From a virus, in IMG/VR virus record IMGVR_UViG_3300048904_000202, positions 1-64,000 of that record: a DNA stretch of 64,000 bases. The stretch is one strand, 5' to 3'. The translations under genes and the position numbers were made by a program. A model generated the notes under the pieces. That model did no database searches, had not been told where the DNA came from, and worked only from the letters and a program-made list of their open reading frames with translations. Shown piece by piece: positions 8,672 to 64,000 of the stretch (within the stretch, counting starts at the first letter, position 1; each line of letters begins with the position of its first letter).

Positions 8672-8850
8672 TGGCACGTCTGCAAGGCCGCGCCCGCGTT
8701 GATCAACTCCGCGCCGAGGGAAAAGGTACGTGGGAGATCAGCCGCACCCTGAAACGAGAGAAGCTGGAGGATGCGATCCTCGACATCCGCGACATCGCCG
8801 ACGTGAAGAGCGTCCTCGAACAAATGCTCAAAGAGATGGTGATCCACTGA
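8671..8850 (+). CDS. Hypothetical small helical protein
   Basis: 59 residues, TGATG-coupled on both sides. Predicted helical and charged (VDQLRAEG, LEDAILDIRDIADVKSVLEQM). Family not recognised. Confidence 0.6.
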   Translation: MARLQGRARVDQLRAEGKGTWEISRTLKREKLEDAILDIRDIADVKSVLEQMLKEMVIH

Positions 8851-9272
8851 TGACCGACGAACAGCACATGGCCGGTGCGGCGACACTGCTGGAGGTTGCA
8901 GGTACGCTGTACCGGGCCGCCAACGTCGCCGACCAGCTTGTGATCCTCCACCCGGACATCCCGTCGATCGCGCATTACGCCGCGCTTCGCCGCAAGCAGG
9001 CGGATGCCCATCTCGCCGCCGCCGAGGCGCTGGAGGACATGCCGCCGGCCGATGTCTTCTATCTGGAGGACGGCAAGCTCGGGTCGCAATACTCGATCCC
9101 GATGATTCTGACCTGCCCGTCCTGCGGCGAGCGTCACATCGACGAGGCGGCGTTCGAGAAGGTCGCCCATCACACCCACGCATGTCAGGGCTGCGGCATG
9201 GTCTGGCGGCCGGCGAAGGTCAACACCCACGGCGTCCGGTTCCTGCCGGGCTACACGAACGAGACGAACTGA
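8850..9272 (+). CDS. Zinc-ribbon hypothetical protein
   Basis: 140 residues. The N-terminal half is helical; the C-terminal half has two Cys pairs (CPSCGERH and CQGCGMVW) with intervening His residues, forming a likely zinc ribbon. It is TGATG-coupled to both neighbours. A nucleic-acid or protein-binding role is possible but not shown. Confidence 0.7.
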   Translation: MTDEQHMAGAATLLEVAGTLYRAANVADQLVILHPDIPSIAHYAALRRKQADAHLAAAEALEDMPPADVFYLEDGKLGSQYSIPMILTCPSCGERHIDEAAFEKVAHHTHACQGCGMVWRPAKVNTHGVRFLPGYTNETN

Positions 9273-56973: not shown

Positions 56974-57046
56974 GCGGTTGTAGTCTCAGCGGTAGAGCGT
57001 CGGCTTGCCAAGTCGAAGGTCGCGGGTTCGATCCCCGCCTGCCGCT
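56974..57046 (+). tRNA. tRNA-Gly (anticodon GCC), CCA not encoded
   Basis: Acceptor GCGGTTG/CTGCCGC; loop TTGCCAA; discriminator T followed by CAA, so CCA must be added by tRNA nucleotidyltransferase. Confidence 0.85.
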
Positions 57047-57162
57047 CAAGCCCGTGATCACAAGTTTCCAGCGGGGTCCGCGCCAGTCCAAGACCTTCAT
57101 GGGAAAGCCGATCGACCATAGGACCAGCGCAGTTGGTCGATCGTGAAATGAGATGTGTTGAT

Positions 57163-62573: not shown

Positions 62574-62602
62574 TTGACAGTGATGCGAATCACGTCTAGT
62601 AA
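62574..62602 (+). promoter_or_regulatory. Promoter of the non-coding RNA unit
   Basis: TTGACA, 17-bp spacer, TAGTAA. The transcript would run to the terminator at 63805, about 1.2 kb, without a convincing protein gene. Confidence 0.75.
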
Positions 62603-62739
62603 GACTCAACACCGAGGGCAATGCTTCCGCTGCGTTCTTGGTTAGCGCCGTTCAGGTGGGTCACTGGACCCTTAAAGGCATGACCATCCATCACATCTGT
62701 GATGGTCCGCCGCCTGAGTGGAGCGACAAGTGATTACCG

Positions 62740-62844
62740 ATCACTGGCGATCGGGATAGATGGTAACGGGCGCCCGCTTTCTCCCCTTGGGCCGGCGCAC
62801 GGTGTTTCTAGGGCTTCGAGCCGTCTATCTCGGTCGCCAGTGAT
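62740..62844 (+). ncRNA. Structured RNA element with 24-bp stem
   Basis: Bases 62740-62763 and 62821-62844 pair over 24 consecutive positions, with three G-U pairs, enclosing 57 bases. The motif CGCCAGTGATG recurs at 62835 and 62953. Not matched to a known RNA; located just upstream of the tmRNA acceptor piece. Region 62603-62739 shows one further hairpin (CCATCAC/GTGATGG) but no gene. Confidence 0.55.
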
Positions 62845-62944
62845 GTTCACTTGCGATGCGGCAGGCCTTGCCGACCGTGGAGGTCGGTTGGTCAACACTA
62901 GGCCGGCGAGGCAGGGAGTAGTGTCCCGGCAACGAGCTTTGGTC

Positions 62945-63034
62945 TGCCCCATCGCCAGTGATGGCGAGATGATCGTAATTCGGACGATCGAAGTTTTGGC
63001 TCGGACGCGGGGGCGGTTCCCGCCGGTTCCACCA
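62945..63034 (+). ncRNA. ssrA: Permuted tmRNA, acceptor piece
   Basis: The 3' part of tmRNA lies upstream of the 5' part. It ends CGGTTCC-A-CCA at 63034; CGGTTCC pairs with all seven bases GGGGCCG that begin the coding piece, including the G3-U70 alanine identity pair. The T-arm stem is GCGGG/CCCGC but the loop is GGCGGTT instead of TTCRANY. TCGGACGCGGG before it matches the usual 3' region of tmRNAs. The 5' end of the piece is approximate. Confidence 0.75.
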
Positions 63035-63123
63035 CGAGCCCCGATATTACTGCCACTAGGGGCGACCTACCGCTCCGAAGAGGCGCGGAGTTATCGGCCG
63101 CGCTCTGTGTTCGGGGTTGATGA
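63035..63123 (+). ncRNA. tmRNA intervening segment
   Basis: The 89 bases between the CCA of the acceptor piece and the GGGG start of the coding piece correspond to the excised segment of a two-piece tmRNA. No other feature was seen in it. Confidence 0.6.
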
Positions 63124-63300
63124 TGGGGCCGAAGTAGGATTCGACGGGCAAGGCGGAGGTTAGGACGCGATCTAGCATGACCGACTACGCTTCGGCGAGA
63201 CAGGTCACCGTTTGTAAATGCGAACGACAACACTCCGGTGGTTGTCGCCCGCGACGAGGTTCGCCTCGCCGCGTAAGCGATAACTCTCAGCCTCCGGACT
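63124..63300 (+). ncRNA. ssrA: Permuted tmRNA, coding piece with proteolysis tag
   Basis: Begins GGGGCCGAAGTA followed by the tmRNA signature GGATTCGACGGG (63136-63147). The resume codon GCG at 63220 opens the tag ANDNTPVVVARDEVRLAA, ending in TAA at 63274-63276. The ANDN start and small hydrophobic LAA end are classic ssrA features. A hairpin (CTCAG/CTGAG) follows. The 3' end of the piece is approximate. It would rescue stalled ribosomes with a phage-specific, unusually long 18-residue tag. Confidence 0.85.
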
Positions 63301-63351
63301 GAGAAAAGGGGCTCGGGGCCAGCCTTGCAACAGAATGGCCCCACGAGATTT

Positions 63352-63430
63352 GAGGTAGCTGGAGGTCGCCGGTTCGAGTCCGGTCATCCCCTGATCCGGG
63401 ATGTAGCTCAGATGGTAGAGCGCCAGCGTA
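63352..63430 (+). tRNA. Candidate circularly permuted tRNA A (3' half before 5' half)
   Basis: 3' half: anticodon strand GCTGG (63358-63362), variable AGGTC, T arm GCCGG-TTCGAGT-CCGGT, acceptor CATCCCC ending 63391. 5' half: GGGATG (63398-63403), TA, D arm GCTC-AGATGGTA-GAGC, anticodon strand CCAGC (63423-63427). GGGATG pairs with CATCCC and CCAGC with GCTGG only in this reversed order. Six bases (TGATCC) separate the halves. The anticodon cannot be read with confidence and CCA is not encoded. Confidence 0.5.
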
Positions 63431-63508
63431 GGGGAGACACCGGTTCGACTCCGGTCCGGCTGTTGATCAGCAGCCGTTAGCTTAGAGGTAAAGCGCCTCG
63501 ATTTTGGG
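63430..63508 (+). tRNA. Candidate circularly permuted tRNA B (3' half before 5' half)
   Basis: 3' half: GGGG (63431-63434), AGAC, T arm ACCGG-TTCGACT-CCGGT (63439-63455), acceptor CCGGCTG. 5' half: CAGCCGT (63471-63477), TA, D arm GCTT-AGAGGTA-AAGC, anticodon strand CCTCG (63496-63500) and loop ATTTTGG. CAGCCG pairs with CGGCTG and CCTC with GGGG. Eight bases (TTGATCAG) lie between the halves. The anticodon is unresolved. Confidence 0.5.
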
Positions 63509-63804
63509 ACGTGGTGAAACGATACATCCACATCTCCTTGAGCCGGCGAAAGCCTGACTGCCGGGAAAGTACGGTGAAGAGCAGTGCGGATGGAGGGCAC
63601 TTGATCTTCGGATCAAGTCCGGGCAACAGAAACCCTCCACTGGTTTCGGGCTTTCAGCCCAGACGAGATGGGGTGGCAAGACAGCGCCGGGTGCGTCCGG
63701 CGTGGCACGCACGCTAAGGCTGATGCTGATGTGTCTTGGGACCATCCCACCTATTTGCCGGGAGCAGGTTTGTGTCTCCCAATACAAAGTGATCCCGGCG
63801 GGTT
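63509..63804 (+). ncRNA. Structured 3' part of the RNA unit, no gene seen
   Basis: About 300 bases with several hairpins: GGC-GAAA-GCC near 63543, ACTTGATC-TTCG-GATCAAGT (63600-63619) nested in GGAGGG/CCCTCC, and GCCGG/CCGGC pairs near 63690. There is no convincing ORF. It may be part of the processing of the permuted RNAs or an independent RNA; no known family was recognised. Confidence 0.5.
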
Positions 63805-63844
63805 AGGCCCGGTCGTTTTTCGGAACGACCGGGCCTTTCCTTTT
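63805..63844 (+). terminator. Terminator of the RNA unit
   Basis: A perfect 13-bp stem (63805-63817 with 63824-63836) with a TTTCGG loop, followed by TTCCTTTT. Confidence 0.92.
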
Positions 63845-63863
63845 GCGAAAGTGTTACTTTCGC

Positions 63864-63892
63864 TTGACATCTGGTGTTAGTTTAGCTTAACA
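63864..63892 (+). promoter_or_regulatory. Rightward promoter with tandem GTTAGTTT-type boxes
   Basis: TTGACA, 17-bp spacer, TTAACA. GTTAGTTTAGCTTAACA lies in the spacer and -10; GTTACTTTCGCTTGACA lies 23 bp upstream. Same architecture as the leftward promoters at 34169 and 39445. Confidence 0.8.
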
Positions 63893-63920: not shown

Positions 63921-64000
63921 ATGACCACGATCGCGTACCGTAGTGGCACCCTCGCTGCTGACTCTCAGATCGCTTACAGTAACTACCTGAACGGGCAACG
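63921..64000 (+). CDS. HslV/proteasome-beta-like protease, 3' end outside the window
   Basis: The 26 codons visible begin MTTIAYRSGTLAADSQ, the N-terminus of Ntn-hydrolase proteases in which Thr2 becomes the nucleophile after Met removal and the Ala-Asp follows 12 residues later. Phage versions are known. The rest lies beyond the window. It is controlled by the strong box-containing promoter at 63864. Confidence 0.6.
   Translation, partial: MTTIAYRSGTLAADSQIAYSNYLNGQ

Follow-up and report, generated by a model that had tools for sequence, protein, structure and literature searches.

By the order and predicted pairing of its parts, the closest known kind to the RNA described here is the bacterial Y RNA YrlA, a single tRNA mimic with the protein partner Ro60/Rsr. 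In Salmonella, YrlA is encoded with rtcBA, and its tRNA-like domain has been suggested to act as a competitive inhibitor of anticodon nuclease (PMC7790460). YrlA-type tRNA mimics occur in bacterial RNA-repair operons, where their function is unsettled. It has been proposed that some phages encode a protein resembling Ro60 together with putative Y RNAs (PMC12282133), and phage tRNAs have been connected with escape from tRNA-targeting defences (PMC10264068). For Mycobacterium phage DS6A, a tmRNA-like RNA without a CDS is mentioned, which is reported to be a form of tmRNA that inhibits the host tmRNA (PMC11915505). Circularly permuted tRNA genes are known from red and green algae and from Thermofilum (PMC3978253). 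In the literature searched, we found no paper that treats permuted tRNAs of phages or tRNA mimics in tandem; a doubled YrlA may already have been described in the bacterial Y RNA literature.

The window, the whole stretch of 64,000 nucleotides that was analysed, comes from a virus record of 164,476 bases. One block in it (62574–63844), which a first-pass annotation had described as a coordinated module of structured RNAs, was inspected at the level of single bases and examined for RNA families, tRNA-type genes and ORFs with Rfam, ARAGORN and ORF tools. The features of the block and of its downstream border are as follows.

62574–62602, + strand, promoter P1 (TTGACA-17 nt-TAGTAA)
62740–62844, + strand, 24-bp-stem element (arms 62740–62763 and 62821–62844)
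62896–62926, + strand, core of a conserved element, CACTRGGSCGGC..GGGAGTAGTG (exact pattern match)
62942–63367, + strand, permuted tmRNA (ARAGORN; Rfam RF04321 and RF01849)
63358–63427, + strand, tRNA-like module 1 (T-arm 63368–63384, D-arm 63406–63421)
63428–63430, + strand, 3-nt joiner GTA between the closing stems of modules 1 and 2
63431–63499, + strand, tRNA-like module 2 (T-arm 63439–63455, D-arm 63480–63494)
63505–63800, + strand, 3' folded RNA segment (fold z = −2.95, terminator excluded; none of 200 shuffles equally stable)
63757–63799, + strand, conserved terminal domain of the 3' RNA (outer stem GCCGGGA/TCCCGGC around TGTCTCC)
63805–63846, + strand, intrinsic terminator (14-pair stem 63805–63836 and T-rich tail)
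63864–63892, + strand, promoter of the HslV/proteasome-like gene (TTGACA-N17-TTAACA)

A non-coding RNA locus at a conserved position

Sequence comparison identifies the interval 62574–63846 as a non-coding RNA locus at a conserved position in a tRNA-rich phage of the Lacusarx/Erythrobacter-phage kind. The relatives compared include the Sphingobium phage Lacusarx (L004), the Erythrobacter phages vB_EliS-L02 (L003) and XM05 (L189), and the IMG/VR contigs L006, L014, L160, L161, L165 and L169. Judging from these related phages, the host is probably a sphingomonad or Erythrobacter relative. P1 is missed by a strict consensus scan because its −10 element fits the consensus at only three of six positions. 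The promoter with 17-bp spacing claimed in the first-pass annotation is nevertheless borne out, the layout TTGACA-N17-TA recurring at the corresponding place in eight relatives (L004, L006, L160, L161, L165, L169, L189 and L011), with a similar spacer motif, CGAATCRC, in L189 and the L160 clade. The terminator, too, has counterparts in nine relatives, and a G+C-rich stem follows the TGTCTCC-bearing domain in all ten phages compared; only the claimed stem length of 13 bp needed correction, to 14 bp. As P1 and the terminator both recur in related phages, the block ends are conserved signals, as far as sequence tells.

The block lies between a Gp77-like tail adaptor gene and an HslV/proteasome-like gene starting at 63921, whose promoter is conserved ahead of the same gene in L003, L006, L014, L189 and L160–L169. 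In the relatives, the RNA block with its tmRNA is followed by the next gene, and where this is the HslV gene, a primase-like gene and rtcB come after it, as far as these records were read. The shared layout thus begins with an upstream gene or an array of tRNAs, which is followed by P1, the RNAs with the tmRNA among them, the terminator, the HslV-like gene, the primase-like gene and rtcB. For the HslV protein, a single-sequence search of IMG/VR gave no match, and a query built from a four-sequence alignment succeeded. The rtcB gene of this phage (67947–69227) lies about 4 kb downstream of the block, outside the window, and rtcB is also present in all six related phage records of the same kind that were searched.

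The longest ORFs in the block, of 154 aa (+ strand) and 148 aa (− strand), both cross the tmRNA, and searches of Pfam and PHROG with five internal ORFs gave no match for any of them, in line with the earlier statement that the block holds no convincing protein gene. A group I intron or a permuted intron-exon arrangement around the modules was considered and rejected, as there was no Rfam group I match at E values up to 5. No GOLLD RNA was found in the window; in the close relative L006, a GOLLD-like RNA (8700–9051, − strand; 108 bits, truncated by the locus end) lies beside the tRNA array. Among the linear tRNAs of the window, tRNA-Gly(gcc) at 56974–57047 is the sole one without an encoded CCA, and its acceptor stem is poor as called.

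The 24-bp-stem element folds with z = −6.0 (0 of 200 shuffles equally stable), and the permuted tmRNA is supported by ARAGORN and by Rfam scores of 82.1 bits (RF04321) and 76.7 bits (RF01849), both above gathering, so that these two elements were correctly recognised in the first pass. By its sequence, the tmRNA is clearly of the permuted alphaproteobacterial kind, with a permuted tRNA-like domain and a tag reading frame. Its acceptor piece has the CCA end encoded at 63032–63034, the coding piece runs from about 63125, and the tag ORF, at about 63220–63276, specifies ANDNTPVVVARDEVRLAA (ARAGORN). The order of acceptor piece, intervening segment and coding piece, with the CCA encoded, is that of the permuted two-piece tmRNA family (RF01849, RF04321), from which this tmRNA differs in being phage-borne with its own tag; it is otherwise ordinary. 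Between the stem element and the tmRNA, the exact pattern CACTRGGSCGGC..GGGAGTAGTG was found in the IMG/VR sequences searched only in the window, in Lacusarx (L004/L009) and in L006, and blastn gives 79.7% for the element against Lacusarx. As read by eye, 62896–62926 is perhaps an H-type pseudoknot; the fold of 62850–62950 without pseudoknots is not significant (z = −1.04). In L006, comparable long stems flanked by CCAGTGATG were seen by eye ahead of the tmRNA, and in Lacusarx (L004, 4080–4769) P1 and the tmRNA are separated by a tRNA-like sequence, the interior of which is odd, and by an ORF resembling a homing endonuclease.

The further folded segment of about 300 bases, as anticipated, is more stable than its shuffles. 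Its terminal domain is present in ten phages, with compensatory changes in the outer stem and with TGTCTCC. Seven relatives (L003, L014, L189, L160, L161, L165 and L169) have a separate promoter for this 3' RNA, TTGACG-N17-TA in the L160 clade and XM05 and TTGACA-N17-TATCAG in L003 and L014, so at least two transcription starts exist at the locus in most relatives; in L006, a TTGACA lies just ahead of the tmRNA. Within the block of the window there is no TTGAC site besides P1, and one long transcript is therefore plausible in this phage. The short terminator-linked RNA with its own promoter and TGTCTCC (L003 at 4220, L014 at 3312, L189 at 2323, L160 at 3492; about 110 nt in XM05) is, by its sequence features, a candidate phage sRNA.

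The contents between these ends evidently turn over quickly when the phages are compared. In the L160 clade and XM05, the tmRNA comes immediately after P1, and neither the 24-bp-stem element as such nor the two tRNA-like modules were found at the corresponding place in the relatives; L006, too, is without the modules. Degenerate tRNA-like pieces with the T-loop sequence GGTTCGANTCC follow the tmRNA in L160, L161, L165, L169 and L189, filling the interval that the modules occupy in the window. Conservation of the block in related phages, which the first-pass annotation had proposed as a check, thus holds for the ends and the tmRNA but not for the stem element or the modules. Likewise, a dedicated RNA locus with conserved ends is upheld by synteny, but a single coordinated unit only in part, given the internal 3' RNA promoter in seven relatives. 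Because of these internal promoters and the unshared elements, we regard the locus as conserved with exchangeable contents, rather than as a proven co-regulated module.

Two closed tRNA bodies in one RNA

Modules 1 and 2 were originally taken for two permuted tRNAs. In both, the order is T-arm, acceptor strand, short loop, acceptor strand, D-arm, and the strands flanking the would-be anticodon loop pair in the exact tRNA register, one base after the D-arm and four to six bases before the T-arm. Module 1 has the closing stem GCTGG/CCAGC (5 of 5 pairs) and the acceptor hairpin CATCCCC-TGATC-CGGGATG (6 of 7 pairs); module 2 has the closing stem GGGG/CCTC (4 of 5 pairs) and the acceptor hairpin CGGCTGT-TGATCA-GCAGCCG (7 of 7 pairs), and its MFE fold contains the T, acceptor and D arms. 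When halves of this phage's own tRNAs were combined in 650 mismatched ways, one combination reached the values of module 1 and two those of module 2. Module 1 resembles the tRNA-Ala and tRNA-Pro halves of the same phage.

Neither module has an anticodon loop or a CCA. A canonical 7-nt anticodon loop with U33 and a purine at position 37 is not obtainable from the joined module ends: the best loop that module 1 allows, GTAGGTA, carries U at position 37, and the anticodon stem of module 2 is incomplete. With the closing stems only 3 nt apart, there is no room for two anticodon loops. CCA is absent from the linker of 5–6 nt between the acceptor strands of both modules and is encoded by 25 of the 26 linear tRNAs of the window and by the tmRNA. 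As read from sequence and pairing, modules 1 and 2 thus form one RNA (63358–63499) of two closed tRNA bodies and are not tRNA genes; the permuted, tRNA-like character seen in the first pass stands, and "tandem tRNA-like RNA" is the better name.

This RNA shares with YrlA the order of T-arm, closed acceptor hairpin, D-arm and closing stem, as well as the character of a tRNA mimic without anticodon. It differs in having two modules head to head, in a phage in which no TROVE/Rsr was found. The Rfam YrlA model (RF02553) matches module 1 with 38.1 bits and module 2 with 23.4 bits, both over about model positions 23–85 of 114 and both below the gathering score of 69 bits; positions 1–22 and 86–114, which hold the Ro60/Rsr-binding stem, are unmatched by the modules. 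Abutting linear tRNAs reach 33.8 bits with the same model, so the YrlA score alone proves little, and we rejected it as proof of membership. On account of the score, the part of the model that is matched and the lack of Rsr, we file the tandem RNA as a variant and not as a YrlA member: it looks like a doubled, Ro-less, phage-borne YrlA variant. With circularly permuted tRNA genes it shares a 3' half upstream of the 5' half and an acceptor stem across the junction, unlike them having no assemblable anticodon loop, a 3-nt joiner and two modules in one RNA. It resembles the DS6A RNA as a phage-encoded tRNA-like RNA without the usual reading function; no tandem permuted design is reported for the DS6A RNA.

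Recurrence in viruses and Bacteroidota

A search of IMG/VR for a D-arm followed by a T-arm at a shorter distance than in a normal linear tRNA returned at least 119 stretches, most of which are linear RNAs of tRNA-like form whose anticodon region is short and a subset of which are tandem permuted pairs. At least about 16 other viral contigs have the same tandem architecture. In an alignment of twelve tandem RNAs, RNAalifold recovered both T-arms, the acceptor hairpins, the D-arms and closing stem 2. With perfect pairing over 4 bp or more as the measure, 11 of the 12 RNAs have closing stem 1 (19 of 132 mismatched pairs) and 10 of 12 have closing stem 2 (38 of 132 mismatched pairs); the closing stems covary across the tandem RNAs, and the short joiner between them is conserved. 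Further members (L246, L304, L196, L294, L309 and L310) scored 82–106 bits with a covariance model, R1, that omits closing stem 1 and was built from sequences later matched, its E-values being rough. Searching two tandem RNAs against annotated phages with blastn gave only partial tRNA matches.

A stricter pattern that omits the closing stem, run on species genomes, found ten loci, all in Bacteroidota (Emticicia, Flavobacterium, Niabella, Saprospiraceae and others), with exactly one copy in each of the ten genomes and none with the reversed-pattern control. In the second set of twelve RNAs found by a pattern without the closing stem (these ten and two viral contigs), all twelve have closing stem 1, versus 37 of 132 mismatched pairs. 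The R1 scores of the Bacteroidota copies (59–90 bits) overlap those of linear tandem tRNAs (up to about 77 bits), and these copies were therefore judged by pattern, register and closing stems. In several of them an anticodon-like hairpin seems to be retained in module 2, beyond the D-arm, which counts against the RNA class never having an anticodon.

In five of the ten Bacteroidota genomes, rtcB lies on the same strand within 4 kb downstream of the RNA (1.9, 1.9, 2.2, 1.9 and 3.9 kb). In two Flavobacterium genomes it lies 8.6 and 9.5 kb away, with TROVE/Rsr in the same stretch, so that rtcB is within 10 kb in seven of ten and TROVE/Rsr is present in two of ten; in three Saprospiraceae the RNA and rtcB are on different contigs. 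Given genomes of 4–11 Mb with few rtcB genes, this proximity appears far from random, although the species are related to one another. The other phages with tandem RNAs, mostly fragments, show neither TROVE/Rsr nor rtcB, and because of the latter the rtcB link is not general.

Proposed role and competing explanations

The explanation that we favour for the locus as a whole, with a probability of roughly 0.45, is that of an RNA locus with a tmRNA, a closed double tRNA mimic serving as decoy or scaffold, and a 3' sRNA. In this phage, P1 would transcribe the whole block, and RNase P and 3'-processing enzymes would free a two-piece tmRNA, as expected from its family, which would rescue ribosomes with the phage tag. 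The double tRNA mimic would stay closed and, like a Y RNA, bind proteins for which the elbow and acceptor of a tRNA are the recognition sites, such as anticodon nucleases or other tRNA-handling enzymes, and it would have neither an anticodon that could be cut nor a 3' end that could be charged; the phage RtcB would mend the tRNAs that are cut. The 3' RNA would be a separate sRNA with the conserved UGUCUCC segment. The role of decoy or scaffold is our best guess, drawn by analogy with YrlA. More tentatively, the tandem RNA could represent an unnamed, widespread phage RNA class, in which two closed anticodon-less tRNA bodies, joined at their anticodon-stem ends and shared with Bacteroidota rtcB repair loci, would occupy tRNA-cutting or tRNA-handling proteins during infection, here within an RNA locus with a tmRNA and an RNA ligase downstream.

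A genuine YrlA-type Y RNA would instead bind the host Ro60/Rsr and tether it to PNPase. YrlA is the only Rfam family besides tRNA that matches the modules well, the Bacteroidota relatives include rsr/rtcB neighbourhoods, and the phages proposed to have putative Y RNAs and a protein like Ro60 (PMC12282133) point the same way; the sub-gathering score confined to the tRNA-like part, the doubling of the module and a phage without Rsr make this reading doubtful. We also think it unlikely that recombination in the tRNA array simply left functionless inverted halves of degenerating tRNA genes. That the closest relatives lack the modules and have T-loop-bearing fragments in the same interval, and that module 1 is similar to phage tRNA-Ala and tRNA-Pro halves, would fit such decay, but decay does not account for acceptor and closing stems kept in the correct register, nor for a tandem design with covarying closing stems that recurs in unrelated phages and in Bacteroidota.

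True permuted tRNA genes, whose precursor would be cut at both ends of each module, closed into a circle by the phage RtcB and reopened in the acceptor loop, as in red and green algae, to give two functional tRNAs, appear improbable. The halves are inverted as in permuted tRNA genes (PMC3978253), the T- and D-arm consensus is intact, rtcB is nearby, and permuted tRNAs whose anticodon arms are intact exist in other viral contigs. Against this stand the U37 of the module 1 loop, the incomplete anticodon stem of module 2, linkers without CCA in a phage whose linear tRNAs encode it, and a joiner too short for two anticodon loops, the shortness of which is conserved. A phage with a doubled mimic, tRNAs, a tmRNA and RtcB offers a natural system for testing the YrlA decoy idea (PMC7790460) during infection. 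For annotators the case carries a caution, as abutting half-tRNAs can be one designed RNA and not broken tRNA genes.

Two other kinds of tRNA-related RNA were observed in viral contigs. Linear tRNA-like RNAs with a 6–7-bp acceptor stem and only 14–22 nt between D- and T-arm occur in L221, L239, L192, L211, L263, L272, L307 and at least about 70 other viral contigs. In unrelated viral contigs, another class of permuted tRNA runs in the order anticodon arm, T-arm, acceptor hairpin (3–9 nt loop) and D-arm (L116 at 4973 and 5134; L036 at 3319; L093 at 4637, − strand; L113 at 13122, − strand; L117 at 2208; L050 at 6816; L120 at 2615; L122 at 2391). These anticodon-arm-first RNAs may be real permuted tRNA genes, and they are often flanked by pairing (G)GTTA and TAA(A)CC sequences and by recurring short motifs.
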